Shown here piece after piece: positions 1 to 36,972 of a stretch of DNA of 43,737 nt; the first letter of the stretch is position 1, and each line of letters starts with the position of its first letter. The position numbers and the translations under genes are program-made. The stretch lies in the IMG/VR virus record IMGVR_UViG_3300005607_000023, positions 1-43,737 of that record; one strand, 5' to 3'. The DNA is from a virus. The notes beneath the pieces were generated by a model that did no database searches, was not told the origin of the DNA, and saw only the letters and a program-made list of their open reading frames with translations.

Positions 1-357
1 GTAGTCCTCATCAATGATCTTGTTGATGTTGTCTTGGATCAGGTTTCCGAACTGCAGGCCCGTCGTCCGGTGCTTGTTGTTCCGCTGTTCGAACTCGCTG
101 ACAACGTTGCCTACATTGGCCAGCTTCGGGAGCGAGAATGTGAAGGTAACCTCGCGGGGAACGCGGGTCAACGACCACTGGATGAAGTGGGCATCGATAA
201 ACGCCGCAGGCCGTGCCAGCGCTTCTGGCGGTACACCACCCGTGTCATTGACACACTCATCAGGAGTGAAGAAGTTGTACTTGTATTCCGCCATCAGGTT
301 CTTGACAGTGGGCACGTCGACGACGTAGAACAGCTTGGACGGTTGGGAGATTGTCAT
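1..357 (-). CDS. Unknown protein, probable virion structural (partial, runs off left edge)
   Basis: An open frame starts with ATG at 357 and continues without a stop to the left edge, giving the first 119 residues (MTISQPSKLFYVVDVPTVKN at the N-terminus). Its ATG overlaps the TGA of the upstream 1401-residue gene as ATGA, so translation is probably coupled. The visible part has no motif I recognise. It contains a predicted mixed strand-rich stretch around residues 60-80 and an Asn/Lys/Ile-rich stretch near residue 110. Its place at the end of a run of large structural genes suggests a virion protein, by context only. Confidence 0.75.
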   Translation of the reverse strand, partial: MTISQPSKLFYVVDVPTVKNLMAEYKYNFFTPDECVNDTGGVPPEALARPAAFIDAHFIQWSLTRVPREVTFTFSLPKLANVGNVVSEFEQRNNKHRTTGLQFGNLIQDNINKIIDEDY

Positions 358-3300
358 GATCCCTCGTCAAACGTCTCAATGGTGACGAAGTATTTGTCAG
401 CGATGAGGTCGCCCTGCATCGTGTCCCGGTCACGGTACTTGAAGGATAGTGTGGTGCGGGAGTTGAAGGTACCGCGGCCCGTGAACACACGTGACCCAGG
501 AACAATCCCGCGCAGCGTGTATGGTAGGAACTGGAACTCGGCCTGCTGGTTTTCTGTGATGGGGACGATCTCTCCGTTCTTGATCATCAGATTCAGCGCT
601 TCACGTCCGTAGGGTGTCGCGCATGTCTGCTGGACGTCGACCTCAAAGTCGGCAGGATCGATCATGACATTGAAGACACGGTCAAACTGCTTGGGCGTGA
701 CGACTTTCTGGTTGAGGGCGGCCGGGTCCGATGCTGATGACAACGTGTCACGCAAGCTGGTGATCGTCTGGAACGTGTGCATCGTCACCGGGACGTACCG
801 GGGCGTGATGCGTGTCAAGTTTGCTTCCAAGTTGCCAACGACCTGTAGTTGATCAACCGTCTTGACTGCTGGGCTTGCAGGTTGGATTGCCCGAAGCTGT
901 GAAGACAGGCTGCTGAAGCCCGCGACGCCCGCTGGATTGGAAAGCTGAGGCTGTGCAATCGCCAACGGCGAGCTGCTGAACAGCGGAAAAGCGGGAGGAT
1001 CGATAGCCGTCGTGTGGAACATCAAACCCCCGACGGGCGCCAGTGGGTGGGCCGTGTTGAACGACGGCAAGCTTGTCCTCATCCCGATCTGCTCGACCAG
1101 GTGGGCGACAGAGTGCTCCGTGATCGTCTTGACGAACGCAGCGTCCAGCGGCGGCGGCACATTGGCCATGTCGAAGTTGTACTCCGCAACGTTGATCCCT
1201 GTCATCAGCTTGATGTAAGCCTCAAGAATCTGACTGACGACGTGGTTTCGCAGGAGCTCAGCCTTCTGTTGGGTCGACATGAACGAATACGAATCGTCAC
1301 TCAATGCGGCCTGAACGTTCTTCAGGCCGTCACGCTCTGCCACCGCCGCGTTCGCGTACTCTACGCCCTTGTCGATCGACTTCGATGTGCTGGTGTCTGC
1401 GTTCTGACTGAAGTCCATCGTCGGGATCGCGTTGACGATGTCTTGCAACGACGGCCGAGAAGACAACGGTAGCCAGGTGCCCATCGACGTCCTGACAGGG
1501 AACCGTGACATCTCGAACAAGAAGCGCTGGGGCTTGTAGACGATGTCGCTGTTGACCATGTCCACCTTGTAGACGCAGACCTGGACCAAGTCATTGCGCC
1601 TGTTGGTGAACGACGCCCGGCTCTGGTTCTGGATGTTGACCTTCTGCTTGATGCGCTGGGTGAAACCCTGCGGAATGCCGACCGTCACGATCCGCTTGTT
1701 CGCGCCCTTGGTTGCTGAGAACTCCGCCGTTCCGAAATACCCGTAGATCGCGTTACGCATTGCCAGGGGTACCTCAGACTCGTCCAAGATCTTGAACTCT
1801 TGGCTGTCATCGGTGTCATGGCCGTACTCCCGCTGCCAGGCTGGCACTGTCTCGTTGGCTGCACGGATCAGGTTGGTCGTCGTTGCAGCCAGCATCTGGA
1901 TCTGCTGCTCGCTCAGCAACATGCTCAACAGCTGCGTATTGTTGCCGAGGATGCCAGCGATGGTTTGGAGCGCCTCCACAGACGTCGGGCTCTTCAAGTA
2001 GTTGCTGATCCCCTTGAGGCTCCCGCTCAACGTCTGCAATACGTGCAGGATGCACATGGTCAAGCGCTGCACCCTGGCATTCTCTTGGGTTGCTCGTGAC
2101 ATCAGTTCGTTGATCGAGTTCCCATGTTGTGTGGTCGTCTGTGAGACAACGTAGGTGACCGTCCCCTGGAAGAACGTGTTGAAACCCGACTGTGTCACAC
2201 CGGTCAGGCTGAGGCTGCCGTAACGTGCGATCGCCGAAATGATGAGGTCGAATGCAACCATCGCTACGACAGTGTCGAGGTAACCTCCGTACACCGTGAA
2301 GTTGTTTGCGATCGCTTGAGTCTGCCGGAACCTGCTGATGATCTGGCCCATCAGGTTGATGATGTAGTTGGTGAGCGGCGTACCGGCTTTGAGTGCAGTT
2401 GCAACGCCCTGCGGGTTGAGAGCGCTTGAACTGTTACGCTGGAACCTGTCAAAGTTCCGCTCACCCAACAGCTGGACAGCGGCGCGGCTACGTGGCAACG
2501 CTGCCTGGAGTTGCGTATTGATCTGGGCAATCAAGGTGTCGACCAACGGCGTGTTGTCAGCCGTCGTCGATGACGTGAAGTACGGAACGAACGTGTTGTA
2601 CGAACGCGAGATCTTCGCCAGCACGTACAGGAACAGCGAGGTCTTGACCCCGTTGTCCTTCCGGGCGAAGGCGAAGATGCTGGCGAGCCTGTCATCCTGC
2701 AACATCTTCGACGTGTTGCCGTTGGCATCGACTAGCCCGGACTTGATGTTGGTCAGCAGGTCCGACGTAGTGTCCAGGATGCTACCCTCGAACCGCTTGG
2801 CCACGTCAACCGACGTGTATGCCGCGTGAGGCTTCTGCAACAGGTTCATCGAGTCGATGACCACGTTGAACGAGTTGTATGCGTTGTCTAGGATCTGGGA
2901 CAACGTGTCGATGTTTTGGGTGTTGAACCCAAGGCCGGCGGGCACATCAGGACCGGGGCTGGCGACGTTGACAGGTTGTAGGACCTGGTCAAAGTAGAAG
3001 TCGCCTCCGGGCGACAGGGTCCCAGTGTCTCCCTCGACGTACTTTGACTCGAACGTCAGGACACCAGTCGAGCCTTGTGTCTGCTGAGCGATCGATGTCA
3101 GGGCCGTGGTCGCCTGAGCGGGGAAGTCGGTGATGTTGTTTCCGAACTTGCCCAGAACACTGTCAAACACCGTCGTGTTTGGGACACCGTTGGTGACCGA
3201 GTAGTTGTAGTTGGTTTGGAGCGCGTTCTTCAGGTTCTGCTGGGTCAAACCGTACGAGTACCTGTACTCCGCCGACAACAGGTGTGCCAGAGCAGCGATC

Positions 3301-4559
3301 CTCGCTTCTTCGTTCTTGAACAGAACGTTCTGGTAGATCGTCGTGAATGCAGGCTTGATGACGTTGACTGTCTGTGCCGTCAGCGAGGGTTGCAAGCTGA
3401 TCAGCTCAGACAGTGGTGGCAGGTTGGGTACGTTTGTCGACAGGGCAAACCGTGCGACTTTCGGGTTCAGGATCGTCGTGGGGTTGACATCGTTTCGCTG
3501 GTATGACGGATCGATGTCAAGGAAGTTCAACGTGTGGGTCTTCAGCGCGTTGGTCAACTCGACCAACGCTTGCATCCAGACCTTTGATGACGCATACGTC
3601 TCTCGTACTGTCGTGGGCTTGTACCCCAGCTCAGCCAGAGCATCGACCAAGCTGAAATCGAACGGGTGGAGTTCAATGAGGTGCAACGGAAGGATGTAAC
3701 GACGAATCTCGGGATCGGGCTGCGCACTTGGCGTCGACTGATCGTAGTTGGCCTGTAGCAGACTTCCAACCAGGCCCGGGTTGACGGTGTAGATGTCATG
3801 GCGGAGGTCGAGCTGCGCCTTCTGCGCCTCGATGATCCTGACCAGGTTCAAGAGGAACGACGAGTTCTGTGACAGGTTGTTCAGCGCGTTCTGGAGCGTG
3901 TCTTTCCGGTTACGAAAGATCTCAGAGATATTGGTGAATCGCTGGCCCAGGGTCCTGATGAAGAACCGGTTGTTGAACGTCCGCAGGTTCCGCATCTGGA
4001 TCTGAGTGTCGAGGAACCTGCCCGCGTCGGTCATGTACGGCTCGATGCCCGCGCGCTCCATGTAGTTGATGAAGGGAGGAGCTGAGTGAACGACATCACG
4101 ATTGAACAGCGGCTGGAAGCTGGTCACCATGATAACCTCGGGACGCTCCTGAGCGACGCCGGTCACCTGTTCATACGGCTGGAACTTCGTCGCTGTCGTT
4201 GTGAAGCCTTGGTTCGCGCGGGGGTCGTACTCCTTACCTGCGTCCAGGTTCAGGTGGTACGTCGGCAACACCGTGTTCCAGTCGGTGTGGATGGGCAGGA
4301 TGATGTGGTTTCCTGTCACCAGGTGTTGTCCGATCTCAGACAATGACGGCGTCGCAAACCGGGTCACCGTCCCGGGCGAGTGCAACATGATTGGGGTCGA
4401 CAGGTGGATCTGCGATGTCGGCAAGGTGCCGAGCGAAGCTGGATGGGTAGCTTGCGTGTAGTTGGTCGCCTGTGTGACCAACGAAGAGACCAGGGGTTGG
4501 ACAGCGACGCTGCCAAAGTTCGCAAAAGAGCTGTTGTTGACTCGTAGCGTCCTGATCAT
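354..4559 (-). CDS. Very large unknown protein, probable virion structural
   Basis: The frame encodes 1401 residues beginning MIRTLRVNNSSFANFGSVAV. It could be extended to 4796, but the ATG at 4559 is preferred because it overlaps the TGA of the upstream gene as ATGA and the extension lies inside that gene. No clear Shine-Dalgarno is present, which fits coupled translation. The protein is rich in Thr, Asn, Gln, Ser and Leu, has no signal peptide or obvious membrane segment, and has long regions that look helical (residues about 280-330 and 690-950). I recognise no enzyme motif. The size, composition and place in a minus-strand structural run suggest a baseplate, tail or internal virion protein. 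That is inference from context. Confidence 0.85.
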   Translation of the reverse strand: MIRTLRVNNSSFANFGSVAVQPLVSSLVTQATNYTQATHPASLGTLPTSQIHLSTPIMLHSPGTVTRFATPSLSEIGQHLVTGNHIILPIHTDWNTVLPTYHLNLDAGKEYDPRANQGFTTTATKFQPYEQVTGVAQERPEVIMVTSFQPLFNRDVVHSAPPFINYMERAGIEPYMTDAGRFLDTQIQMRNLRTFNNRFFIRTLGQRFTNISEIFRNRKDTLQNALNNLSQNSSFLLNLVRIIEAQKAQLDLRHDIYTVNPGLVGSLLQANYDQSTPSAQPDPEIRRYILPLHLIELHPFDFSLVDALAELGYKPTTVRETYASSKVWMQALVELTNALKTHTLNFLDIDPSYQRNDVNPTTILNPKVARFALSTNVPNLPPLSELISLQPSLTAQTVNVIKPAFTTIYQNVLFKNEEARIAALAHLLSAEYRYSYGLTQQNLKNALQTNYNYSVTNGVPNTTVFDSVLGKFGNNITDFPAQATTALTSIAQQTQGSTGVLTFESKYVEGDTGTLSPGGDFYFDQVLQPVNVASPGPDVPAGLGFNTQNIDTLSQILDNAYNSFNVVIDSMNLLQKPHAAYTSVDVAKRFEGSILDTTSDLLTNIKSGLVDANGNTSKMLQDDRLASIFAFARKDNGVKTSLFLYVLAKISRSYNTFVPYFTSSTTADNTPLVDTLIAQINTQLQAALPRSRAAVQLLGERNFDRFQRNSSSALNPQGVATALKAGTPLTNYIINLMGQIISRFRQTQAIANNFTVYGGYLDTVVAMVAFDLIISAIARYGSLSLTGVTQSGFNTFFQGTVTYVVSQTTTQHGNSINELMSRATQENARVQRLTMCILHVLQTLSGSLKGISNYLKSPTSVEALQTIAGILGNNTQLLSMLLSEQQIQMLAATTTNLIRAANETVPAWQREYGHDTDDSQEFKILDESEVPLAMRNAIYGYFGTAEFSATKGANKRIVTVGIPQGFTQRIKQKVNIQNQSRASFTNRRNDLVQVCVYKVDMVNSDIVYKPQRFLFEMSRFPVRTSMGTWLPLSSRPSLQDIVNAIPTMDFSQNADTSTSKSIDKGVEYANAAVAERDGLKNVQAALSDDSYSFMSTQQKAELLRNHVVSQILEAYIKLMTGINVAEYNFDMANVPPPLDAAFVKTITEHSVAHLVEQIGMRTSLPSFNTAHPLAPVGGLMFHTTAIDPPAFPLFSSSPLAIAQPQLSNPAGVAGFSSLSSQLRAIQPASPAVKTVDQLQVVGNLEANLTRITPRYVPVTMHTFQTITSLRDTLSSASDPAALNQKVVTPKQFDRVFNVMIDPADFEVDVQQTCATPYGREALNLMIKNGEIVPITENQQAEFQFLPYTLRGIVPGSRVFTGRGTFNSRTTLSFKYRDRDTMQGDLIADKYFVTIETFDEGS

Positions 4560-7036
4560 GGTGCATCTACAATTACGGTGTTGGTCGTCGCTGCAGTACC
4601 AACCTTGTAGTCGTTCATCACGGGGATGATGACATAGTTGATCGGACCGTTGTCGTAGTGCGTCACAGGGTGGAAGTACTGGCACGCTCCGTATGGGAAC
4701 TCTGAGTGGGCTTTGCCCAAAGCAGTCCTGACCCCGTTTACGGTCTTCAAGATGACAAAGTGGTCGACCTGCGTGATGTCGCCGTTGACTTGCCAAGTAA
4801 TGATGTTGAGGCTGCGGTTGAACGGCGTCGCCGTCTGGTTGATGATCTTTGCAGTGTCATTGTCGAATGAAGCCTCAACTGTGGTGATGGATCCGACAAC
4901 GCCGAACGCCATCGGGTCCTTGGCGTGGCGTTGAGCCGCACCCTTCGATGACACGATGACTCCCCGCGTCAACGCTAGCGGGTGACGGAACTTGGCAGGG
5001 TTCCAGGTGTAGGGCTTCTTCGTCGAAGCATCGGTCGATGTCTTGGTGTAGTTCTCAAACAACGTCTCGGCTTCACGAAGCAAGGGGTAGATCTCATACC
5101 GGTAGATGTGACCGTACTGGAGGGCCGACACCGCCTGCGTCTTCCTCAACACGCTGTCTTGGAAGTTGGGGCTTGTCACCGTCCCAAAGTTCTCTCGGAT
5201 GCCCGTGGTCAAGTCGACTCGCTGCACTTGGTGTGCGATCAGGCTTGCCAACTGGTCACGCTGGTTAGCGATGTCACCCGTGAAATACTCCGTCAAGTTC
5301 TGGTTCTTCAACATCTGCTTGATGTTGTCCATGTCCGTGTTCGTCGTCGAGGTATTGATGACGAACGAGACGTCTGGTGCGCTATCATGGTTGACGACCA
5401 GGTCAGTGATCGACGTGTCAACCTGACCCGGTGCAGGAGTGATGAACTCGATCGTCACGTCACCGAAGTCTTCAGTGTCACCATCCAGGTAGATCAACCG
5501 AGCAACGTATCTGTAGATGTTGCCTTGTGTGACGTCGGTGTCGAGCGTGGTGACCAGGTCTGCCTGTCGTGCCGCATCATCGACAAAACCCACGTCGCCA
5601 TTGACGATGTCGTAGTCCAACGCGGATTGGTGGGTCGTCAGGTTCCACTTCAGGAACTGGATGGCGACGCACCGGGTCGGGATGCTGCGTGCCTCGAGCT
5701 GGATTCCTTGAGGGACTTGCAAACCCGTCAGCGCCACGCTGCGCAACGGCGTGTAGTGACGCGGTCGGATCACGGTGTTGGTGTAGTCAAAGCCCAGGGC
5801 TCCCTGCGCGCCGACAGGGACGGCACGGTAGATAGCCGCTGAAGCAAGCGGGACGTCTACCTTGATCTGCAGCGCCTCGTGCTTTGATGTCAACGGGTAT
5901 GTCCCGATGAGGCTGTACGAATCGATGTCTTGGGCTGCTGCAAAGACGGTCTTCTTGTAGACCTGTACCGATGTTGCACCGGGGTCGATCTGCTTGATCT
6001 GCAGCGTACCATAGGTCGAACTGGGAGTGACCGACGCCTTCACGATGGGCGGCAGTTTGGGCGTGTTATAGACCTGAAGCTCTTTAGAAATGTTCAGCGT
6101 CTTGGTGATGCTGTCGACGGGCTCATTGCTGTCGCGGTTGAGCAGATCGAACTGGACGAATGCGTTCGTCAGGTCAGCGTGTTCCAAGCGCAGCAAAGCA
6201 GCTGGAACCACGACTGTCTCCGTGATCTCCTGCATTGTCCTAGTGAAGTTCCGCATCACATGGACCAAGTCGTCATCGACAAGATCGTCAGTCGTTGCCG
6301 GCGGTACATCAGTCGTCGCCGGAAACAGATGGTAGTTCAGCAACTGGGACGCAGGATCAGTCGCTGACTCCAGAGCTCGAGAGGTGTTCGAAAACCCTTG
6401 CCTGATCGCTGTTGACGATTGCGACCTTGGCGTCAGTGCAAAGATGTACGATGGATCCAACGACTGTCGTGCGATCATGTCCTGCATCACCTGTTGCGGG
6501 TTCAGCAGAGCGCTGCCAGAGATAGTCGTGGAAAGATCTGACACGATCAACGAATTTGATACCCGGTTGAGCACCGGTTGTGGGTCGTTGTCCCGCTTCG
6601 CATCGCTCGCTCGAATCGTCTGGAGCTGGGGTCCATTCAGCTGCGGGATGTCCTTTGGATCGACCTGTGCCAGCAACTGGTGGAAGATCTCGTTGTTGAG
6701 GTAGGTCAGGATGTTGCTGTTCCTCGACGCCAACACGTATGTCAGCCGTTGTTGAGCGACCTGCTTTGCGTGTAGCAGCTGGTTCCTGATGTTGTTGACG
6801 AGGGCGCGCGTGTCAACGATGCCCCGCTGCGTCACTCCGAGCAGCGGCTGTTGGGGCACATACCTGCTGATGACTTGGATCTTGACGATATTCGCGTTTT
6901 GGTTCAGGGCACGGCTGGGGTTGACGGCGTAAGTGAACTGGAACTCCAGGTCGCCGTTCGAACGTACGTTGACCAACTGGGCGAAGTCGTCATTCACCGT
7001 GACCAAGTTGGAAGTCTGTTGGTACCTGAAGAACAC
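4556..7036 (-). CDS. Large unknown protein with fibronectin-III-like strands, probable virion structural
   Basis: The frame encodes 826 residues (MFFRYQQTSNLVTVNDDFAQ at the N-terminus). Translation begins at GTG 7036, preceded by a GAGGTG Shine-Dalgarno at about 7041-7046, and the stop overlaps the next gene as ATGA. The N-terminal 330 residues include charged helical stretches. From about residue 330 onward there are several stretches that alternate strand and turn, such as VTPSSTYGTLQIKQIDPGAT and the final 100 residues, where the pattern of hydrophobic residues resembles fibronectin type III or similar beta-sandwich domains. Such domains are common in phage baseplate and tail proteins. 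No catalytic motif is visible. The gene sits between two other structural-looking genes with almost no spacing. Confidence 0.82.
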   Translation of the reverse strand: MFFRYQQTSNLVTVNDDFAQLVNVRSNGDLEFQFTYAVNPSRALNQNANIVKIQVISRYVPQQPLLGVTQRGIVDTRALVNNIRNQLLHAKQVAQQRLTYVLASRNSNILTYLNNEIFHQLLAQVDPKDIPQLNGPQLQTIRASDAKRDNDPQPVLNRVSNSLIVSDLSTTISGSALLNPQQVMQDMIARQSLDPSYIFALTPRSQSSTAIRQGFSNTSRALESATDPASQLLNYHLFPATTDVPPATTDDLVDDDLVHVMRNFTRTMQEITETVVVPAALLRLEHADLTNAFVQFDLLNRDSNEPVDSITKTLNISKELQVYNTPKLPPIVKASVTPSSTYGTLQIKQIDPGATSVQVYKKTVFAAAQDIDSYSLIGTYPLTSKHEALQIKVDVPLASAAIYRAVPVGAQGALGFDYTNTVIRPRHYTPLRSVALTGLQVPQGIQLEARSIPTRCVAIQFLKWNLTTHQSALDYDIVNGDVGFVDDAARQADLVTTLDTDVTQGNIYRYVARLIYLDGDTEDFGDVTIEFITPAPGQVDTSITDLVVNHDSAPDVSFVINTSTTNTDMDNIKQMLKNQNLTEYFTGDIANQRDQLASLIAHQVQRVDLTTGIRENFGTVTSPNFQDSVLRKTQAVSALQYGHIYRYEIYPLLREAETLFENYTKTSTDASTKKPYTWNPAKFRHPLALTRGVIVSSKGAAQRHAKDPMAFGVVGSITTVEASFDNDTAKIINQTATPFNRSLNIITWQVNGDITQVDHFVILKTVNGVRTALGKAHSEFPYGACQYFHPVTHYDNGPINYVIIPVMNDYKVGTAATTNTVIVDAP

Positions 7037-7045: not shown

Positions 7046-8068
7046 TCACTGGAAGACGAGGGTGAACAGGTGGATGAACGTGTCGGTCCCTTTTTCATCG
7101 ACTGTCACCTTGCCGACGAAGAAGATGTGGGCCGTCGGGTGGTTAGGATCTCCCGTCCGGTGCCGTCCATAGTCAACGATGTCGAGTTTCTTCAATGTGT
7201 CGTAGTTCTGCTCGAAGAACTGCCCCAGCAAGTTGTTGTTGATCGAGGTTGGGTCGAAGCTGATCTGCTTCATGTAGCCCAATGCCTCATAGTACCTCAG
7301 CTCATATGCGATCTGCTCGTAGCGTAGAGCCGACGACCAGAACCAAGTGTAGATGCCCCATGGGACGTATGCACCCAGGAACCTGACCTTGCTGACGTCT
7401 TGGATGCCCCAATCACCCAACGCTGACTCATCTTGGACCTTGTTGATCGGAGGCAGGTACTTGAAGTTGGGAAGGTTGCTGAAGCGTGGATCGCTAAAGA
7501 TGCTGTCCAACGCGCTGACGTGGGTCGAGAACTGTGCCGGGTTCCTGATGGGCTTGGAATCGTTGATCTGGAATGTGACGGTCGATGGCCCCGCTGCAAA
7601 ACCGTCGTCCTCAAAGAACGGGTCTACAGTAGACAAGACGCGGAGCTTGCTGAAGTTGTCGGCTGAGGCCCCCAACAACTCGTTGACCTGATCGGCAAAG
7701 TTGTCACCCCGAGCGGCTGACGTTCCCTCGCTCGGTGAGCTGATGATCGAGCTCGTCACGCCCGTATACGTGTAGTCAATGATCTTGCCGAATCCCGTGT
7801 TGATCCCAGAAGAGTTGCGGAACGGCAACACGTTCCCGGAGTCGTCGGCACGGAACGTGATCTCGTCCTGAGGCAGCTGGCACGATTCGAGGTAGATCCT
7901 CTGCGTCGCGTCCTGGCTGCCACTGGCCACGTCGGCGGCGTAGTGGGTCATCCCATCTGAGAACGACACGTACGCGATGTCGACGCCACCTTGTGCCAGT
8001 TGCCGGCGCCCCTCGATCGTCAGGATGGTGTCGAGGACGCGCGTCTTGTTGTCGAGAATGCCGCTCAC
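7046..8068 (-). CDS. Conserved phage-type structural protein (unnamed family)
   Basis: The frame encodes 340 residues starting at GTG 8068, with an upstream AGGG as the only Shine-Dalgarno-like sequence. The N-terminus (SGILDNKTRVLDTILTIEGR, then a stretch reading roughly YVSFSDG) resembles an unnamed protein type I associate with the structural regions of large phages; this is from memory and not searched. The remainder has no transmembrane segment and is rich in Asp, Ser and aromatic residues. It is followed after 9 bases by the 826-residue gene. The role is probably in the tail or baseplate, by context. The family name is not known to me. Confidence 0.75.
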   Translation of the reverse strand: MSGILDNKTRVLDTILTIEGRRQLAQGGVDIAYVSFSDGMTHYAADVASGSQDATQRIYLESCQLPQDEITFRADDSGNVLPFRNSSGINTGFGKIIDYTYTGVTSSIISSPSEGTSAARGDNFADQVNELLGASADNFSKLRVLSTVDPFFEDDGFAAGPSTVTFQINDSKPIRNPAQFSTHVSALDSIFSDPRFSNLPNFKYLPPINKVQDESALGDWGIQDVSKVRFLGAYVPWGIYTWFWSSALRYEQIAYELRYYEALGYMKQISFDPTSINNNLLGQFFEQNYDTLKKLDIVDYGRHRTGDPNHPTAHIFFVGKVTVDEKGTDTFIHLFTLVFQ

Positions 8069-8103: not shown

Positions 8104-8126
8104 AGGGGCCGTCGTCAAGAGCCCCT
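8104..8126 (-). terminator. Short hairpin around the stop of the 155-residue gene
   Basis: AGGGGC (8104-8109) and GCCCCT (8121-8126) form a perfect 6-base stem with an 11-base loop holding the TGA of the upstream gene. No T-run follows on the minus strand, so this would be a weak or factor-dependent terminator, or a processing site. A TATATT element lies at about 8092-8087, before the next gene, but no convincing -35 sits at normal spacing. Confidence 0.25.
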
Positions 8127-8582
8127 AGAACCTCTCACGAGCCTAATGCGTACGGGTTGGTGGCGTGCAGAGCTGTACGCCTTCTTGTATCTCGTGAGGT
8201 CACGAGGGGGCAGGATGGGGGCCGGTGGAGCCTCGGGGATTGGGAAAGGGTTCCAGTCGCCGGGTGAAAGACCTTGATCGACGATCGGGAACGTGTTCGA
8301 TGTCGTGTCAGTCCTGTCGATCGACTCCGTCGGGATGAGGTACGTACCCCACGAGTAGTCGATACCCAACCAACGACCCTCCATGAACGATGATGACACA
8401 GCGGCCAATGAAGAGGAAGCCAAGCCCCACGTGTTGGCTAGACCGAACCATGAACCCGTGTGGAAACCGTCGTTGATGGTCGACGTTGTGGTGCTGGCAC
8501 CGATCGTGTGTGCGCTGCCCCACATCGAACCCGTGTAGGTCGAGTTGACTTCGAGGGTTGTCAGTTCAAAGAACGTCGACAC
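8115..8582 (-). CDS. Small fibre-associated protein with C-terminal TRY..YS motif
   Basis: The frame encodes 155 residues from GTG 8582, with a good GAGGTGG Shine-Dalgarno. Residues 1-90 are rich in Ser, Thr, Gly and Trp (many strand-turn repeats), residues 105-130 are proline-rich, and the C-terminus carries LTRYKKAYSSARHQPV. The last gene product of the A type at the far end of the adjacent array (A3) ends with a similar motif (ATRYRKTYSYFRQVPV), also after a proline-rich stretch. Nothing else identifies a function. The place, 9 bases after A1, and the shared motif suggest a component attached to or co-assembled with the fibre-like proteins. Confidence 0.75.
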   Translation of the reverse strand: MSTFFELTTLEVNSTYTGSMWGSAHTIGASTTTSTINDGFHTGSWFGLANTWGLASSSLAAVSSSFMEGRWLGIDYSWGTYLIPTESIDRTDTTSNTFPIVDQGLSPGDWNPFPIPEAPPAPILPPRDLTRYKKAYSSARHQPVRIRLVRGSRGS

Positions 8583-8591: not shown

Positions 8592-10520
8592 TCACGACAT
8601 CGGGCGGATGCCGCCCCAAGGTAGGTAGAACCCATTCGTCGTGTGGAACCAGGTGTTTGCCGAGTCAGCTGTGGTCCACGATCCCACGTTTGCGCGGCCG
8701 AGCCTAGCGATTGGGAACCGACCCATCCGACGGATCTCAAGCGGAAGGACTTCTGGACCTGGAGAGTTGAAGTAGTTGGTGTCGCGCCCACCGGCAATGA
8801 GATCGACTGGGAGCAGTTCTGAACCGCCCAGGAACGGTGTGTCGCCCGCTGAAGAATCGAACCTGATGCCGTTGTTGTTGCCGCCCTGCGTGGCAACGAA
8901 GTTGTAGGTCGCCAGAGCGCAGCTGATCGGACCCTGTCTCGGATTGAGGCTGTACGCTACGCCCGAGATGCCGTCATCTTGGTAGGTGCCCGTCCGCCAG
9001 TCGACGCCCTGTGAGTAGTTGGACTGTCCCACGACGAACAGCCGGTGGATGGGATCGGGCTGCAGGGGCACCGTCTCATCTTCGGGCAAGCCGAAAGCAG
9101 CAAACTCGTCAGATGCATTGAAGTACCCACGGTTGCAGACAACGACGGCACCAGTGACATCATCGCCCCAGATGTACATCCTCCACCGGTAATCATCTGT
9201 GTGCACTGCAGGTGGGAAAATATGGCCTGCATTGAATGACGTCATCACGTATGTGTTGTTTGTCGCGTACTCGTTACCCAGGACGCCAGCAGGCGCAACG
9301 TGGTCTGCGTAAGCGTGATCAGGGTTCAGACCGATCGTCAACCCGCGGTACGAGCTGCTGGCGGTGTTGTACCACAAGGCACCGTGGAGGTGACGGCCTC
9401 CGTTCTGGCCCGTGGCAAAGTCTCCTCCTGAACCGCTAAACCCTGGCGCGATCGACAGGGTGACGCCATTGCAAGCACCACCCGCTGATGCATCACCGGT
9501 ATCATACGCGCTCTCAAGGCACAGCCTGACCTGCCAGCCCGTTGAGTGTGGGCTCTGGTAGATGATGCGTAGACGATCGTATGAACCCTGGCCATGGTAA
9601 TGACCATCGTCGGGTGAGTTGTTGAAAGCGGGCCTGTCCAACAGCGACGCGACCATTGTCTTCGTCGGAGTTGCAGATGTGATGTACTCCGGGCTGTACG
9701 TCGGCGAGTTGGGCTCGATCACAGCGGGCGTTTTGGCGGTGATCCCACCATCAGCTTCGCACGGGTTCCAGATGTAGAAAAAGAACGCCTTGTTTGAGAG
9801 GTAGCCGAAGTAGTCATCAATGATGTCAACGCCCGTCGCTGCATTGACGTTCGGGTTCAACGTTTGATCGTTCGTGAAACCATAGACAGGCAAGAAGAGA
9901 GGCGAGCCGGTGTTGCCGATAACGGGTGAATCAACTCTGGGATGGCTCTGGACCGTGCTGTTTCCGCTATCAACGTGGTCCTCCAACTGCGGGTTGTTGT
10001 CCCACCCGTTCATGTCGACGTCACCGTCAGCATCAGCGTCGGTGTTGATCGGCATGTCGAGGTCATTGAAGACCGACTCTACCGGTGGAAAGACCGTCCA
10101 TGTGAAGCTGGGATCCGCGTATGGGACAGAACCCGAATCAAACGTTCGTGTGTCAAACGTGATGGTGCTACCGCCTGCGCTGATGATGCGATACAGGCCC
10201 GAGTTCACCAGTGGATACGTGTTGCTCTTGATCGCAAGGATGAAGTCGGTGCCACCCTGGGGAGACGCTACATGCCAGCCGCCAACAGAACCTGTCAACG
10301 TGAGAACACCGACTCCTGCTGACGATGACAACGTGTCACCCCCACTCGTTCCGCCCGTTTGGAGCGCGATGGGTAGAAGGTTGTTCAACCACTCACTACG
10401 CCCCGCGGCACCCACCCGAGTGAATCCCAGGACGCCTTCTAGGAAACAGGCGAGCGCGTACATCGAGCTGTACGAACCCGTAGAACCGACAACCAGGTCT
10501 CTGCAACAGTGGACTGCCAT
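8592..10520 (-). CDS. Type A fibre-like protein, copy A1 (with calcium-loop-like insertion)
   Basis: The frame encodes 642 residues, about 100-190 more than A2 and A3. It starts at ATG 10520, which overlaps the B1 stop as TGATG. Shared type A signatures include CRD near residue 6, a NSGLYRI stretch near residue 106, LSIAPGFSGSGGDF, RMYIWGDDVTG, HRLFVVGQSNYS and a C-terminal PWGG. An extra segment (about residues 150-310) absent from A2 and A3 holds DADADGDVD at 161-169, an Asp/Gly pattern typical of calcium-binding loops (EF-hand or dockerin/thrombospondin-3 type). The composition (Gly, Ser, Thr, Asn, Trp, Tyr) fits a beta-rich surface or fibre protein. No enzymatic motif is visible. Confidence 0.82.
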   Translation of the reverse strand: MAVHCCRDLVVGSTGSYSSMYALACFLEGVLGFTRVGAAGRSEWLNNLLPIALQTGGTSGGDTLSSSAGVGVLTLTGSVGGWHVASPQGGTDFILAIKSNTYPLVNSGLYRIISAGGSTITFDTRTFDSGSVPYADPSFTWTVFPPVESVFNDLDMPINTDADADGDVDMNGWDNNPQLEDHVDSGNSTVQSHPRVDSPVIGNTGSPLFLPVYGFTNDQTLNPNVNAATGVDIIDDYFGYLSNKAFFFYIWNPCEADGGITAKTPAVIEPNSPTYSPEYITSATPTKTMVASLLDRPAFNNSPDDGHYHGQGSYDRLRIIYQSPHSTGWQVRLCLESAYDTGDASAGGACNGVTLSIAPGFSGSGGDFATGQNGGRHLHGALWYNTASSSYRGLTIGLNPDHAYADHVAPAGVLGNEYATNNTYVMTSFNAGHIFPPAVHTDDYRWRMYIWGDDVTGAVVVCNRGYFNASDEFAAFGLPEDETVPLQPDPIHRLFVVGQSNYSQGVDWRTGTYQDDGISGVAYSLNPRQGPISCALATYNFVATQGGNNNGIRFDSSAGDTPFLGGSELLPVDLIAGGRDTNYFNSPGPEVLPLEIRRMGRFPIARLGRANVGSWTTADSANTWFHTTNGFYLPWGGIRPMS

Positions 10521-11917
10521 CAGAACCCCTCGAACATCTTACGACCGATGACGATCGCGTTGTCCCACGGCCACATCACGCCGCCACCGGTGTGAATCCA
10601 TCTGTCGCTGTCGTCACCGACCCGCATGTAGTAAGGATAACCTCCCCCGATGTACCTGACGGCACGAAGCCGCGCTCGGGCGAAGCTGAACTGGCCCGCG
10701 ACGCTTGCCTGTCCGCTGACAGTCGCCATCGACAACACGGGTTCTGGGAACAAGAATTTGGACTGGCGCTGGTTGAAGAACATGCTGGCCCAGCGTCCCA
10801 TGCGAAGGCCTTGTTGAGTGCCCGCCCAAATCGTGTTGTTCCATGACGAACCTGTGTAACCCCTGACCATGCAAGGCCACCGGCGGACCAACGTATCGTA
10901 GGGGCTCGGGAAGTGGAAGTGTGCGTAGCCGTATCCCACCTGGGCTGCAGTGCTGACGCCCAGGTTCCCAAAGTTGTTGGCACAGATCGGGTTGGGGTCG
11001 TTGGCTTGCGGATACAAACGGATGGGCACCTCGATGTGGAAGCTCGAGCCACCATTGGGCATGAAATTTCCGCCAGCCTGGCAGATGATGAATGCAATTC
11101 CGGCAATGATCGTAACGAAGCCATCGCCTCCACCGCTGTTGTGGAACCAGTCAGCCTGCGCCCACCCGCCACCGCCGGGACCGTCGCTGGTTACTTCGGG
11201 AAGGATGGGTTGGGATGCATCGCTGAACGATGAGATGCCATCCCAAGAACCGCTCGGAGACAGGATGATCTGCAACTGAGAGATGTTGCTGCTGGCGTGT
11301 GAACAAGACAACGAACACTGTGGCGTTGCTTGCCCGGGATTGACCTGTGATGCACGCGGGAACTGTAGGTTGACGAATTGTCCAACTGCGTACGGTCCAG
11401 CGTTCGCGGCGGCCAGGTAGTCGATGACCCGGTAATTGATGCCGTTCCGTGTAGTAAACGTGGGTTGCGAGTACACATCGGGCGGAGTGCCACCATAAGT
11501 CGGATCCAGCAAGAGGCTGGAGGAGTTCAACCACTTCCGGATCTTGTAGATACTGTCGTCGGTGCTTGTCGATCCCGACTGCCACAACGTGATCCACTTT
11601 CCCTCCATCGCGGGCGCGAAGGGCGTCGACCCTGTCACGTTGAAGTACGGCAGACCAGCGACAGTAGCACCGTCGCTGCCCGAAGCGATCAAGACATTGC
11701 TGCCAGTGAACCACCCGTCGGGCATGTTGTGGAAGACGCCCGGAGTGACTGATCCCAACCCTGGGTTCACCAAGTCGTTGCTACCGTTGACACAGAAGCC
11801 CCAGAACTCAAGGCACAGCCTCAGGACCCACGACATGCAACCGTCAGTACCGAAACTGGGTGCTGGGTTGACGTGGAACGCTCGGAGAAACTTTGCGTTG
11901 AGTACGGGAGCTGACAT
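10520..11917 (-). CDS. Type B fibre-like protein, copy B1
   Basis: The frame encodes 465 residues from ATG 11917, with a GAGGTG Shine-Dalgarno 5 bases upstream. Type B signatures are all present: LEFWGFCVNGSNDLVNPG near residue 36, WQSGSTSTDDSIYKI near 110, NGINYRVID near 155, NPGQA near 193, ILSPSGSW near 218, SSFHIEVPIRLYP near 290 and GGVMWPWDN near the C-terminus. The codons for WQSGSTSTDDSIY lie in a 34-base block identical to B2. The C-terminal RARLRAVRYI then WIHTGGGVMWPWD looks like a distant version of the type A C-terminus. It is probably a beta-rich tail or surface protein. Confidence 0.82.
   Translation of the reverse strand: MSAPVLNAKFLRAFHVNPAPSFGTDGCMSWVLRLCLEFWGFCVNGSNDLVNPGLGSVTPGVFHNMPDGWFTGSNVLIASGSDGATVAGLPYFNVTGSTPFAPAMEGKWITLWQSGSTSTDDSIYKIRKWLNSSSLLLDPTYGGTPPDVYSQPTFTTRNGINYRVIDYLAAANAGPYAVGQFVNLQFPRASQVNPGQATPQCSLSCSHASSNISQLQIILSPSGSWDGISSFSDASQPILPEVTSDGPGGGGWAQADWFHNSGGGDGFVTIIAGIAFIICQAGGNFMPNGGSSFHIEVPIRLYPQANDPNPICANNFGNLGVSTAAQVGYGYAHFHFPSPYDTLVRRWPCMVRGYTGSSWNNTIWAGTQQGLRMGRWASMFFNQRQSKFLFPEPVLSMATVSGQASVAGQFSFARARLRAVRYIGGGYPYYMRVGDDSDRWIHTGGGVMWPWDNAIVIGRKMFEGF
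11553..11586 (-). repeat. 34-base block identical to 14264-14297
   Basis: The block in B1 is identical to that in B2, although flanking codons differ. It encodes the QSGSTSTDDS stretch. It suggests recent gene conversion or strong constraint on this loop. Confidence 0.85.
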
Positions 11918-11924
11918 CTACACC

Positions 11925-13289
11925 TCACGGCAGGATCGAACCCTGCCACGGCAGGTAGATCCCGTCGTTCAGGTGGAGCCACGAATGAACAGAGTCAGTC
12001 GAGACCTGGAAGTACCCGTAGTTTGATCGGCCCATCTGGACGAAGGGGGCTGTCCCCAAACGCCTGCCCTCGAGGGGCATGTGTTCGTTGAGGTCTCCCA
12101 GGTGGTCATTACCTCCCACAAAGATGTCAACCGGGATCAATTCAGACGCAGCAATGTATGGGTTGTCGCCACCGTTGTTGGATCCCCGTGCGCTCGTGTT
12201 GCCAGGGGCAAAGACCTCGCCCGCGAGCGGGTTGTAGAGGCTGTAGATCGCAGTGATGGGCTGTCCGCTCAGACCGAAAGACACACCAGCCCTGTTCACA
12301 CCCTGGCCGCAGGCCCAGTAGATGCCGTTGTCGCCGCTGTTGCCAACCGCGTTGGCTCCCATCACGAACAAACGTTGGATCGGTTTGGGCGGCAACGGTT
12401 GTTCCTCGTTCACCGTCAGGCCGAACTGAGTGAAACTGCCTCCGCCGTTGCCACCGATGACCGGGCGGCATGCCGCGAAGCACGTACCGGTGGAATCGTC
12501 GCCCCACATGTAGAACCGACCTTGAGTGACGTTGTCAGGCCAGAAACCGACTGTTTCACCTACGAGTGATTGATCGTGGTTGTTGAAGAACAGGACGGCA
12601 TGGAGATGCGGTCCACCCACTGCAAAGTCACCGTGAATCGTTCCACCAAATCCAGGTGCGATCGTCACCGAACCACCGTTTGCTGATGGTGAGACGCTGC
12701 CTCCCTGGTAGTACTGGTCGTAGTTCGATTCAACGCAGATCCTGACCTGCCAGTTCAACGAAGACGGGCTCTGCAAGATGATGCGTGAGGCATTAGCACC
12801 CGCACCTTGTGTCTGGTACGTGCCCGTGGTTCCGTTGCCACCATTGGTGACGTTGGCGTTGAAAACGAACTCATTCTCACACACGGCCCACGTCATCCCG
12901 GTCTCGGCGGGCGGCACGTCTCCTGACCGGTAGTTGATGTAGAGCCAGTTGTTTCCCGTATCGACCGAGGTGACCCTGAACATGCCCGAGTTGAGCATCG
13001 GGTTGCCCGGACTCCGAAGGACCAGGATACGACCGATGTCGGCAATCGATACTGTGTAACCGTCTGGTGCGAAGGCGTAGATGTCGGTGCCGCCCTGGTT
13101 CAGACTGCCGTTGTTTCCGCTGCCTTTCGTGTAGGTGCTGCCGTCAATGTCCCAGTTTGTCTGGCCCACGACAACGTAGTTCAAGACCCTCCGCAGGAAG
13201 ATCGACAACAGGTAGTTGGCGTAGTAGGGTCCCCACTGGTTCAGCGGGTTGCCCCACGACAAGAAGTCTCTGCAAACGTGGAGTGTCAT
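11925..13289 (-). CDS. Type A fibre-like protein, copy A2
   Basis: The frame encodes 454 residues from ATG 13289, one base after the B2 stop. It is the shortest A copy. Signatures: VCRDFLSWG at the N-terminus, VVGQTNWD near residue 39, IGRILVLRSPGNP near 86, GMFRVTSVD near 102, SRIILQSPSSLNWQVRICVE near 168, TIAPGFGG, FYMWGDDSTG, QRLFVMGAN, ASELIPVDIFVGG, RRLGTAPFVQMGRSNYG and GIYLPWQGS at the C-terminus. The Ser/Gly/Asn-rich beta-type composition suggests a surface-exposed virion protein. It lacks the insertion of A1 and the C-terminal extension of A3, so it may be nearest to the basic A domain plan. Confidence 0.82.
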   Translation of the reverse strand: MTLHVCRDFLSWGNPLNQWGPYYANYLLSIFLRRVLNYVVVGQTNWDIDGSTYTKGSGNNGSLNQGGTDIYAFAPDGYTVSIADIGRILVLRSPGNPMLNSGMFRVTSVDTGNNWLYINYRSGDVPPAETGMTWAVCENEFVFNANVTNGGNGTTGTYQTQGAGANASRIILQSPSSLNWQVRICVESNYDQYYQGGSVSPSANGGSVTIAPGFGGTIHGDFAVGGPHLHAVLFFNNHDQSLVGETVGFWPDNVTQGRFYMWGDDSTGTCFAACRPVIGGNGGGSFTQFGLTVNEEQPLPPKPIQRLFVMGANAVGNSGDNGIYWACGQGVNRAGVSFGLSGQPITAIYSLYNPLAGEVFAPGNTSARGSNNGGDNPYIAASELIPVDIFVGGNDHLGDLNEHMPLEGRRLGTAPFVQMGRSNYGYFQVSTDSVHSWLHLNDGIYLPWQGSILP

Positions 13290-13290
13290 G

Positions 13291-14595
13291 TCAGCCCGCC
13301 AGGAAGAGGTTGTAGGGAAGGAGGGTGTTGTCCCATGGCCACATGATGCCGTTCACAACATGGAGCCACTCGCCATTGTTGCCGACCCTCTCGAACTGCG
13401 GGATGATCGGAGCAATGAATCTGACACGGCGTAGCCTGACACGTGCCAGTTGGTACTGTCCCGCGACGTTGGGCAAGCACGCCACAGCGTCAGTGAACAC
13501 AAACTTGTTCTGGTACGTGTTGAAGAACGTCCCGTTGAACCTGCCGTTCGATTGGTTTCCCACGTGGTTGGTGTCATCGATTCCAAAGAACCGACGACCG
13601 AACCCATAGTAGGCTCGCAACGTGTTGTCGGGCGGATTGTGCATAAAGATGCCACCGCCATAGTGGTTGCCAGAATCCGTCTGCGTGATCGTGTAGTCAG
13701 CGTATGGAATGACAACGATCGGATTGGGATCATCTCCCGCTGGATACAACCGTTGTGGGATCTCGATGTGCCAGCCCGAGCTGTCTTGGCTAGTGCAGTG
13801 GCTGTGACAGATGAAGAAATCGCCTGCACCCCACAAGCTGATGTAGCCAGGGCTCGACGCGCTCCAGTAGCTTGTATTGCCGCCACCCTGGGTGATGGGG
13901 CCGACGGGATCGGTGAACTTGTACGATCCGCTGTTGAGCCCCCATGAACCTGAGGGGGACAACACATAGTAGAGGCCTGACGCCAACACGCCGAAACCAG
14001 GAGGAGGTGCACCGTAAATGATAGCACACTGTGAGTTCGCCTGGCCCGGGTTGATGGTGCCCGCGTCGCTGAACTGGCAGATCAGCTGGCTCACCTGGCT
14101 GGTGTACGAACCGTTGGCCGAGGGAGTGAAGTCAACGATGCGCCAGTTGATGTTGTTCCGTGTTGTCAGTGACGGATGCAGCGAACCCGTGTAGGGCGTG
14201 CCACCGTGGAACACGTTGAGACGGATGCTGCTGGAGTTGAGCCACTGCGTGATCTGGTAGATGCTGTCGTCGGTGCTTGTCGATCCCGACTGCCACATCA
14301 CCAAGAACTTATTGACGTACGATGCCGAGAACGCATTGAGGTTCGTCGACTGGAAGAACGGCATGCCGACATTGGTGAACCCATCAGAACCCGATGCCAG
14401 GAGGCCCGTCTGGCTCGTCCACGGCATCTGGTACACGCCAGACACGGGAGCAAACGCTGCGAGTCCCGGGTTGACCAGGTCGTTGTCCCCATTGACGCAG
14501 AAACCCCAGAACTCGAAGACGAGCCTCAAGAGCCAGCCAAGCGAGTTGACTCCACCAGGAACGGGGTGAGCTCTGAGGAATTTAGCGGTCAGCAT
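13291..14595 (-). CDS. Type B fibre-like protein, copy B2
   Basis: The frame encodes 434 residues from ATG 14595, with an AGAAGGGG Shine-Dalgarno upstream. It matches B1 along its length: FEFWGFCVNGDNDLVNPG near residue 27, MWQSGSTSTDDSIYQI near 98, NNINWRIVDF near 145, NPGQANSQC, VLSPSGSW, GWHIEIPQRLYP, ARVRLRRVRF and a C-terminal GIMWPWDNTLLP. The N-terminus (LTAKFLRAHPV) matches LNAKFLRAFHV of B1. It is the copy that shares a 34-base identical DNA block with B1. The likely role is the same as B1: a beta-rich tail or receptor-facing protein. Confidence 0.82.
   Translation of the reverse strand: MLTAKFLRAHPVPGGVNSLGWLLRLVFEFWGFCVNGDNDLVNPGLAAFAPVSGVYQMPWTSQTGLLASGSDGFTNVGMPFFQSTNLNAFSASYVNKFLVMWQSGSTSTDDSIYQITQWLNSSSIRLNVFHGGTPYTGSLHPSLTTRNNINWRIVDFTPSANGSYTSQVSQLICQFSDAGTINPGQANSQCAIIYGAPPPGFGVLASGLYYVLSPSGSWGLNSGSYKFTDPVGPITQGGGNTSYWSASSPGYISLWGAGDFFICHSHCTSQDSSGWHIEIPQRLYPAGDDPNPIVVIPYADYTITQTDSGNHYGGGIFMHNPPDNTLRAYYGFGRRFFGIDDTNHVGNQSNGRFNGTFFNTYQNKFVFTDAVACLPNVAGQYQLARVRLRRVRFIAPIIPQFERVGNNGEWLHVVNGIMWPWDNTLLPYNLFLAG
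14264..14297 (-). repeat. 34-base block identical to 11553-11586
   Basis: This is the B2 copy of the block described for B1. In B3 the corresponding region differs (VPGSPGEAATDDGVYFI), so the identity is limited to B1 and B2. Confidence 0.85.
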
Positions 14596-14613
14596 GGAAC
14601 CCCTTCTATAGTA

Positions 14614-16236
14614 TCACGGCTTGGCAGGGTTGGAGCCACCCTTCTGCACTCCCGCGATGACTGGCACTTGGCGGAAGTACGAGTAGGTCTTGCGGTAGCG
14701 AGTGGCATCAACGTCGAGGATGTTCGGCGATTCGGGTGGAACGGGTGGATCGCTGCCCGGCAGGAACGCTCCACGGGGATCGAGGCCTTGTTGCAGCTCG
14801 TTGCTCCCGCTTGTTGCAGTCACTGCGCTGATCCCACCGAAAACCGCGTCACTCGGCGGCGGACCGCCCCACTGCATGAAGATGCCGTCTTCAGTGTGGT
14901 ACCATCCCCCGTCGCCTGTCACAGCCCACGGAGTGTAGTTGGCCCGGCCCTGCATGAAGAACGGCAAGCGTCCCAGCCGGCGGGGCTGGAGCGGGAACAA
15001 CGACGACGTTGTCGTTGAAGCGAACGTCGTGTCGATCGTTCCCAAGAGGATCTCGGCATCAAGGAGGTCGGTCCGACCGTTCCAGGCGCTGTCAGTCGAC
15101 GAGGTCACGTACCTGATGTGCTGAGCGCTGGGGTTGCTGATGTCGCTGTAGAGGCTCAACACACCGGCGACGGGGTAGCCCAGCTTACTCCATCCGATGA
15201 CCTGTGTGACGTTGTCCGAATGGAACTGTGACTGCCACGTCAGCTTCGACTGCGGGTTGCTCGACCCGAGGACGAACAACCTCGATGCATTGATGAACTC
15301 ATCACCCAAGTTTGAGTTCGATGGGATCTCGGTCTCGTCTGCCGTCAAACCAAAGACGCACCAACCCGAACCACTGAGACCCGGTGACACTGACAAGCTG
15401 ACGTTGTGGTTGACGATGCCACACGTTCCCGACACGTCATCAACGATCATCGAGATGCGCCACTGACCGTTCTGGTTGTAAGCGGGAGTGATGCCCACTG
15501 TCATGCCCTGGTACAGCTGGCCCGTGGTGTTGTACCACTCCGCCCCGTGCAGGAAGATCCTCTTGCCAGTGTTGTTGCCCGAGTCAACAGGATTGAAGTC
15601 TCCGATGCTGTTGCCACCGAAACCTGGAGCGATTGAGAAGCCTGACGGCACAGCCCCAGTGACGTCGTGGGATGACTCAAGGCACATCCTGACTTCCCAC
15701 GAGCTCTCGTCAGTGCTCCGAAGAATGATGCGGCTAGCGTTCGACACTGACGATGTGTTCGGCGTGTATGAACCGTAGTTCGCAGTCCCGTTGCTTCCCG
15801 TCCGCCACGACGTAGCAAAGCTGGCCTCATTGACGAAGAGGTGCCAGAACAGGTACTGCTCAGGCGGAGGTGGCGTGGCAGAACGGTAATCGATCACCAG
15901 GCAGTTGTGGGGAACATCGACACCCGTCACGCGGAATAGCCCAGAGTTGGCTTGCGGGTACAGCTGAGATTTCAGCGCCAGGATCCGACCGATGTCGTTG
16001 TTTGACACCAGGTGTGACCCAGTTGGCAAGAAGACCTCGTTGGACCCGAACCCCATGTTGATGGTCCCGCTGATCCCCTGGCTCACGCTCGCAGACCCCG
16101 CCAGATCGAAATTGGTCTGGCCCACGACAGAGAACCCGCCCACGTGGAGCATGAACATGCCCAGGGCGTACATGTTCGTGCCTGGGCACGATGCCGTCGT
16201 GATGGTCAGGAAGTCACGGCACAGGTGGATCGTCAT
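14614..16236 (-). CDS. Type A fibre-like protein, copy A3 (with C-terminal extension)
   Basis: The frame encodes 540 residues. The frame is open to 16314, but ATG 16236 is chosen because it overlaps the B3 stop as ATGA and the product then begins MTIHLCRDFL, matching MTLHVCRDFL of A2. Signatures: VVGQTNFDLAG, IGRILALKSQLYPQANSGLF, SRIILRSTDESSWEVRMCLE, SIAPGFGGNSIGDF, MIVDDVSGTC, SRLFVLGSSNPQ, RRLGRLPFFMQGRANY and FMQWGG. After the point where A1 and A2 end, A3 continues for about 80 residues, Gly/Ser then Pro-rich, ending with ATRYRKTYSYFRQVPV, a motif shared with the 155-residue protein at the other end of the array. Confidence 0.82.
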   Translation of the reverse strand: MTIHLCRDFLTITTASCPGTNMYALGMFMLHVGGFSVVGQTNFDLAGSASVSQGISGTINMGFGSNEVFLPTGSHLVSNNDIGRILALKSQLYPQANSGLFRVTGVDVPHNCLVIDYRSATPPPPEQYLFWHLFVNEASFATSWRTGSNGTANYGSYTPNTSSVSNASRIILRSTDESSWEVRMCLESSHDVTGAVPSGFSIAPGFGGNSIGDFNPVDSGNNTGKRIFLHGAEWYNTTGQLYQGMTVGITPAYNQNGQWRISMIVDDVSGTCGIVNHNVSLSVSPGLSGSGWCVFGLTADETEIPSNSNLGDEFINASRLFVLGSSNPQSKLTWQSQFHSDNVTQVIGWSKLGYPVAGVLSLYSDISNPSAQHIRYVTSSTDSAWNGRTDLLDAEILLGTIDTTFASTTTSSLFPLQPRRLGRLPFFMQGRANYTPWAVTGDGGWYHTEDGIFMQWGGPPPSDAVFGGISAVTATSGSNELQQGLDPRGAFLPGSDPPVPPESPNILDVDATRYRKTYSYFRQVPVIAGVQKGGSNPAKP

Positions 16237-17642
16237 ACGCCGAGCCTCCACGGTCCTTCCGGCATGATCGAATCGTCCCAAGGCCAAAGGACGCCGTTGG
16301 AGACGACGACCCACCCGTTGGGGTCAGTGATCGGGTCGCCGAGGCGGGCGCCGCGCTGCAACGTTGCGACTGTAAATCGAACGTGACGCAGACGCGCGCG
16401 AGCGGCGGCAAAGTGGTTCGGAACGTTGGTCAGGCTCAGGATGCCATCGGTCGTCATGTACTGGGGGAAGTGTTGCAGGGCATCACCCACCCGATCGAAC
16501 GCAACATCAGCAAACCGGAACGCCGGTAGCTGAAACTGCTGCCACTGACCCGTGCCATAACTGTTGCCGGTGTAGCTCTGGCGTACGCGGTCTCCCATCG
16601 GTGACCGGACCAGCATCGTCCAGTTCCGGACAACCGAGTCTTCGCACACCATGTTGAAGCCGTTGTAGTACGTTGCGGCAACCTGGCTCGGGACTGCGTT
16701 CTGCCACATCAACCATGCAACCGGGTTGGGATCGACGCTCGCTGAATACAGCCTCTGGGGAACCTCGATGTGAAACCCGCTGCCTTGAGTAGAACCGTTC
16801 TGCGTGTTCGGTCCCCTGACCTCGGCGATGATGAAGTCCTGGCCCCCGATCAATGTGAAGGTGCTCTGGCCCGTGTTACCGTTGCCGTTCGGATTGAAGA
16901 AGTTGACCGTCTGCTCAGGGGTTCCATCAGTGAAACCTGTCCCATTCCAGGAACCGCTCGGTGAGATGATCAGACCCAGGTTTCCCTCGGCTCCGAAAGA
17001 ACTGGTGTGATGGGTGATCTGGACTTGGGCCTGGGCCTGTCCCGGGTTGACGATGGGCGCACCCTGGAGTTGCAGGACTTGGTAGTTGCCCTCGCCCCAA
17101 TCAGCCAATTGGGTGGTTGCATAGATGTCAACGATGCGCCAGTTGATGTTGTTGCGGTCCCAGAACCACGGGTGGTTGCCCAACCTACGGGTGCCACCGC
17201 TGTGGATGTCAACCCGGATGTGATTCGCATCCTCGACAGACTTGATGAAGTAGACGCCATCGTCTGTTGCGGCTTCGCCAGGAGAACCCGGAACCCAAGT
17301 GACCAGGTACTTGCCGACCAACGATCCAGACAGCGACCCGCTGGTGATGGTCATGAAGTTGACGCTGTTGCTCGAGAAGACGTCGAACCCGAAGCTGGTT
17401 GACCCGTCGTTTCCCGCTGCGATCAGGCTGCCGCTCCGGAAGCCTGACGGCATGTTGCTGGCTACGATCCCACCCGCGTGGTGGAGGTCGTTGGTCCCAT
17501 TGACGCAGAACCCCCACCACTCATACAAGACTTTGTGGAAAAAGCGCGACGCCTGAGTGGCGGTCAACCCAGTCCACGCCGTGAACTGGGGACCCTCCAA
17601 CGACTTGCAGTACTTGATAGGGATCTGAAGCGGCGTCGTCAT
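16233..17642 (-). CDS. Type B fibre-like protein, copy B3
   Basis: The frame encodes 469 residues from ATG 17642 with an upstream GAGGGG. It is the most divergent B copy and the first of the array to be transcribed. Shared signatures: YEWWGFCVNGTNDL near residue 41, NNINWRIVDIY near 165, NPGQAQAQ, LIISPSGSWNG, SGFHIEVPQRLYS, DPNPVAW, RARLRHVRF and GVLWPWDDSIMP near the C-terminus. The stop lies inside an ATGA overlap with A3. As for the other copies, the beta-rich Gly/Asn/Ser/Trp composition suggests a tail-fibre or surface protein, with no catalytic motif seen. Confidence 0.8.
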   Translation of the reverse strand: MTTPLQIPIKYCKSLEGPQFTAWTGLTATQASRFFHKVLYEWWGFCVNGTNDLHHAGGIVASNMPSGFRSGSLIAAGNDGSTSFGFDVFSSNSVNFMTITSGSLSGSLVGKYLVTWVPGSPGEAATDDGVYFIKSVEDANHIRVDIHSGGTRRLGNHPWFWDRNNINWRIVDIYATTQLADWGEGNYQVLQLQGAPIVNPGQAQAQVQITHHTSSFGAEGNLGLIISPSGSWNGTGFTDGTPEQTVNFFNPNGNGNTGQSTFTLIGGQDFIIAEVRGPNTQNGSTQGSGFHIEVPQRLYSASVDPNPVAWLMWQNAVPSQVAATYYNGFNMVCEDSVVRNWTMLVRSPMGDRVRQSYTGNSYGTGQWQQFQLPAFRFADVAFDRVGDALQHFPQYMTTDGILSLTNVPNHFAAARARLRHVRFTVATLQRGARLGDPITDPNGWVVVSNGVLWPWDDSIMPEGPWRLGV

Positions 17643-19031: not shown

Positions 19032-19093
19032 TTGGTTTCCTTTTGCGTTTGATGTCGGGCTGTTAGGGTCCACTTTTCGTTCCCATTGATCTC

Positions 19094-31548: not shown

Positions 31549-31554
31549 GGGCAC

Positions 31555-35929: not shown

Positions 35930-35936
35930 CTGGGCG

Positions 35937-36971: not shown

Positions 36972-36972
36972 C

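Follow-up and report, generated by a model that had tools for sequence, protein, structure and literature searches.

Organization of the array in the window

The window analysed here is the whole 43,737-nt stretch of the IMG/VR virus record IMGVR_UViG_3300005607_000023. Its minus strand carries six abutting full-length genes between positions 8592 and 17642, in the order A1-B1-A2-B2-A3-B3, so that the tightly spaced alternation of two gene types described in the first-pass annotation is exact in both coordinates and order. Type A and type B subunits are encoded by A1 (16233..17642, 469 aa) and B1 (14614..16236, 540 aa) in pair 1, by A2 (13291..14595, 434 aa) and B2 (11925..13289, 454 aa) in pair 2, and by A3 (10520..11917, 465 aa) and B3 (8592..10520, 642 aa) in pair 3. 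The true start of B1 is the ATG at 16236, and a longer ORF starting with GTG at 16314 is not used. A1 and B1 overlap by ATGA and A3 and B3 by TGATG, and the remaining junctions are gaps of 1-18 nt. The reading frames are intact in all six genes. Scans for promoters and terminators gave background levels only.

The similarity among the A copies and among the B copies, on which the earlier description had depended, was significant in all-against-all alignment. Local identities were 32-40% for A-A and 29-34% for B-B comparisons, with BLASTP E-values of 1e-46 to 1e-88 and 1e-34 to 1e-58, respectively, and z-scores of 50-97 against shuffled sequences. Two B copies carry additional segments. B3 contains an insertion of 164 residues (residues 152-315; 9576..10067, minus strand) that is missing from B1 and B2 and includes a D-x-D-x-D-G-x-x-D stretch (10014-10040, minus strand), which resembles a calcium loop by motif recognition only. 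B1 has a C-terminal extension (residues 459-540; 14617..14862, minus strand), the end of which is related to the C-terminus of a 155-aa accessory gene (E 1e-5 to 2e-4) located directly after B3 (8115..8582, minus strand).

Distribution and gene context of related arrays

Scans of IMG/VR for related arrays, with their copies counted, identified 17 related contigs of up to 480 kb besides the window, with some redundancy: the window has an almost identical counterpart in G001, and G009 is a near copy of G010. Three pairs recur in these contigs, not invariably. Group I (the window, G001, G003 of 340 kb and G004) has the order A-B-A-B-A-B. Another group I contig, G002, carries one extra A2-B2 pair (...A2a-B2a-A2b-B2b-A3-B3), with an A2a fragment 89% identical to A2 of the window and a B2a 66% identical to B2, indicating that the pair was duplicated as a unit. 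Such duplication of the whole pair had been deduced from the alternation in the window and is directly visible here. Group II (G005, G009/G010 and G011 of 204 kb) has the order A-B-A-B-(190 aa)-A-B, and group III (G014, G015 and further contigs of 480 and 23 kb) has A-B-(190 aa)-B-A-B, without A2. The arrays of G006, G007, G008, G012 and G013 are cut by contig ends, and A1 orthologues were found in G003, G004, G006, G007 and G012. The A-B-A-B-A-B order recurs in two distantly related groups, and the array characterises the lineage; it is not confined to the window's phage.

No relatives of A were found in bacterial and archaeal genome contigs, and neither A nor B matched Pfam, PHROGs or PDB sequences. 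Likewise, tblastn against the 50,697 cultured-phage records of INPHARED with A2, B2 and two group II proteins gave no match, nor did an INPHARED search with the 340-, 826- and 1434-aa neighbours.

In group I, the array follows a PhoH gene and is continued by four further genes in the conserved order A1..B3-155-340-826-1480. In the window, the gene immediately upstream of A1 encodes a PIN-PhoH fusion (17661-19073, minus strand); its place next to the array is conserved in group I, and in groups II and III, where LamG/concanavalin-like genes precede the array, it lies elsewhere. After the 155-aa gene, the same operon encodes a 340-aa conserved protein (7046..8068, minus strand), whose family belongs to the window's group and is absent from the others, an 826-aa conserved protein (4556..7036, minus strand) and a 1480-aa ORF (354..4796, minus strand), the true start of which is probably further in. 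The 155-aa gene is weakly similar (E 0.006) to the roughly 190-aa gene within the arrays of the other groups. The latter was seen in L026, L030, L032, L056, L057, L084 and L085; in group II it follows B2 and precedes A3, in group III it separates B1 from B2, and its sequence contains short Y.GY.(T/N)N(W/F) repeats.

Variable insertions are usual in surface-exposed virion proteins, and FCCH-like repeats are inserted in several members of groups II and III. The A1 copies of group III (L056:14708-18478 and L084:1653-5432) contain approximately 730 residues of such tandem repeats. The 1257-aa A1 of this group was considered as a fused A1-A2, a reading that was rejected because it consists of one A copy plus the inserted repeats. 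The A1 of G007 (L028:11311-13197) carries a C-terminal fusion of approximately 630 residues with no match in Pfam, PHROGs or PDB. It contains GNS and DGTHW stretches reminiscent of SGNH hydrolases, a resemblance that is unproven, and none of the three databases supported reading the fusion as an esterase.

Remote paralogy of A and B

Pairwise BLAST gave no significant match between A and B, and their relationship emerged at the profile level. Profiles of 25 sequences each matched with a probability of 92 (E 7e-7) over 404 columns, and profiles of 30 and 32 sequences with a probability of 88 over 189 columns, although the FCCH-like repeats may also inflate these mixed-group scores. A higher score between group II A and B (probability 99.6) was set aside, its source being the shared inserted repeats. 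Because group II members share these repeats, the comparison was redone with profiles from the window's group only, which gave probabilities of 44-70 over 122 collinear N-terminal columns and scores of 41-47, compared with at most 26 for decoys made of reversed sequences. Additionally, the A profile matched B2 proteins at the corresponding N- and C-terminal stretches, and a C-terminal motif, W.H..(N/D)G....W, is common to both types. The AlphaFold models of A2 (pLDDT 81, pTM 0.88) and B2 (pLDDT 84, pTM 0.89) begin with the same strand-helix order. A and B are remote paralogues and, given the profile matches and this shared order, the array most likely holds six copies of one ancient fold in three A-B units.

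History of the triplication

In maximum-likelihood trees, copies grouped by array position within group I with strong support. When groups II and III were taken together, copies grouped by array position at most positions, again with strong support, the exception being the B2 of group III, which joined B1. This clustering within each group indicates an old triplication. Joining A1, A2, A3, B1, B2 or B3 across groups I and II was rejected (p 0.0025 or far lower) by AU tests, which are open to whatever long-branch bias the model has. Moreover, the A copies branched as (A1,(A2,A3)) in group I and as (A3,(A1,A2)) in group II. With orthology by position rejected across groups, two histories are the simplest: either the pair was triplicated twice, independently, or a single triplication was followed by homogenisation of the copies ahead of the diversification of each group.

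Among the copies in the window, identity at synonymous codons equalled the expectation from codon usage except in one stretch of A2 and A3, which is 86% identical over 74 nt with a local excess of identical codons (p 0.005, uncorrected for six comparisons). Conversion is therefore not frequent now. Within group I, mean pairwise identity dropped along the array (A1 0.63 and B1 0.61, A2 0.57 and B2 0.56, A3 0.49 and B3 0.46), with pair 1 the most conserved, pair 3 the least, and the A and B of each pair matched; group II did not follow this pattern. The correlation between A and B rates was r 0.95 in group I (nine non-independent values), compared with r -0.15 in group II.

Fold matches and possible relation to gp47/gp48 of JBD30

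A Foldseek search of BFVD with the A2 model returned nine matches at E ≤1e-3. The best was a 387-aa protein of Acidovorax phage ACP17 (E 2e-6), and the others included I6NQT6 of Burkholderia phage KL1 (E 5e-5, probability 1.00, TM 0.34/0.42), a protein of Agrobacterium phage Atu_ph07, A7KUT2 and A7KUT3. Phage G gp371 (E 1.5e-3) and A7KUT4 fell just above this threshold. A7KUT2, A7KUT3 and A7KUT4, whose accession numbers run consecutively, all have A-like folds and are presumably proteins of Bacillus phage 0305phi8-36. TM-scores of the A fold matches were mostly below 0.5, and the B2 model had no confident fold match in BFVD or PDB.

By length and position, I6NQT6 is KL1_00022, which forms with KL1_00023 an adjacent pair in phrog_687. 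The JBD5 counterparts of these two proteins match PDB 8rk3 (chains c and S) along their full length, and further relatives of JBD30 gp47/gp48 in phrog_687 are Kakheti25 gp22/23 and PAE1 Orf24/25. In JBD30, each baseplate arm contains three heterodimers of gp47 and gp48, two proteins of similar fold; the heterodimers contact the type IV pilus, and one adjacent gene pair supplies all three (PMC11445458). The A-B pairs of the window resemble this system in being adjacent, co-oriented genes with paralogous products of similar fold; the A model has a fold match in KL1_00022, at TM-scores below 0.5. They differ in number, divergence and location: all 12 siphovirus records inspected have a single gp47/gp48-type pair immediately downstream of the tape measure gene, whereas the window has three diverged pairs after a PhoH gene, without direct sequence match. 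The array is flanked by the PhoH gene and the 155-, 340-, 826- and 1480-aa genes, and not by tape measure and distal tail protein genes. A and B had no sequence match to profiles of phrog_687 or gp47/gp48, and hhalign comparisons with gp47, gp48 and phage G profiles, both direct and pooled, reached decoy levels only. Because neither sequence nor location agreed, the array was not filed under phrog_687. No A or B profile match was found in the genomes of KL1, JBD5, G, ACP17 and Tunturi_5.

Two other systems show partial likeness. Phage G encodes three tandem virion structural paralogues, gp371-gp373 (phrog_9130), of which gp371 is linked to phrog_687 by sequence (E 2e-7); like the window array they are three in a row, but they repeat one protein type of approximately 280-290 aa without A-B alternation, compared with 434-642 aa in the window. 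The 387-aa tail protein of the ACP17 type (phrog_9998/9600) is a single gene adjoining other tail genes, unlike the array. Its family matched the pooled gp47/48/G profile (E 2.7e-4, 62 columns), group II A (E 1.4e-3, 152 columns) and B (E 0.004, 183 columns), with scores of 31-37 compared with at most 20 for decoys. Beyond being the best fold match of A, the ACP17 family forms a weak sequence bridge between A/B and gp47/48.

Proposed role of the array

We suggest, with a probability of about 0.5, that the array encodes subunits of heterodimeric side fibres of the gp47/gp48 kind. The six products would be parts of tail-attached fibres through which a jumbo phage, probably with a contractile tail, recognises its host, as the host-binding fibres of JBD30 do. 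A and B, as ancient duplicates of one fold, would most likely assemble as A-B heterodimers like gp47 and gp48, and after the old triplication of the pair each copy would have taken a fixed identity. The label "fibre-like" in the first-pass annotation is plausible: the fold of A matches virion structural proteins of the gp47/gp48 kind, and some relatives lie beside LamG lectin-like genes. The heteromeric fibres suggested there would be compatible with these findings. The matched conservation of A and B in group I favours our proposal; its absence in group II, the mostly low TM-scores of the A fold matches and the lack of a confident fold match for B count against it.

In the simplest arrangements, the three A-B dimers would differ from one another and share one composite arm, or each virion would carry A-B fibres of three kinds. 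The occurrence of three pairs in two groups, together with three heterodimers per arm in JBD30, suggests the composite arm. An arm of three identical heterodimers in simpler phages might then have become one of three different heterodimers in jumbo phages, perhaps twice independently. We regard this step as doubtful, and the assignment of one gene pair to each arm position as speculative; the coincidence of threes could be chance, and the extra pair of G002 and the missing A2 of group III indicate that pair number is not strict.

In the other version of the side-fibre reading, each pair might be a fibre type of its own, giving the virion three receptor specificities and no composite arm. This is possible on a minority estimate: each pair is a complete unit, and orthologues have diverged and acquired insertions of their own, among them residues 152-315 of B3, the FCCH-like repeats of other groups and the large extra C-terminal domain of one A1, but group III retains B2 without A2, and this model does not predict that three pairs would recur in two groups. 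It is unlikely that A and B serve elsewhere in the virion, as collar, whisker, capsid decoration or baseplate ring, rather than as host-binding fibres. PHROGs files phrog_687 and phrog_9130 under head and packaging; however, in JBD30 the members of phrog_687 have been assigned from structure to the baseplate arms, and relatives of the ACP17 protein sit among tail and tail-fibre genes. The earlier proposal of a reservoir for host-range switching by recombination, which the A2/A3 stretch might favour, is very improbable, since identity between copies is no more than 29-40%, every copy is intact, their order is fixed and they have orthologues across genomes, codon identity elsewhere is at expectation, and neither inverted repeats nor partial, silent copies were found; the neighbours scanned with Pfam showed no recombinase.

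Tandem fibre genes are already known, and the array is a further variation on that theme, in which two paralogous partner types alternate in a conserved order. A and B represent an undescribed protein superfamily of jumbo phages, with no Pfam or PHROG model, that the fold match of A links tentatively to a fibre system of solved structure. For annotators, they offer a probable identity for runs of unnamed genes near LamG genes. If each arm position did have its own gene pair, the array would be a clean example of a homo-repeated assembly turned into a hetero-assembly through pair duplication.

The related genomes contain weak sheath-like and Baseplate_J matches, which make a contractile tail likely. 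Elsewhere in the window, the minus strand encodes a ClpP-like protease (21955-22605; PF00574, E 4e-41) and a GroEL-like protein (25127-26341; phrog_5725, E 4e-17). The plus strand carries a large block of sugar genes (27003-43465), including glycosyltransferases, a Polysacc_synt_2 epimerase, an aminotransferase and two UDP-glucose dehydrogenase-like genes.
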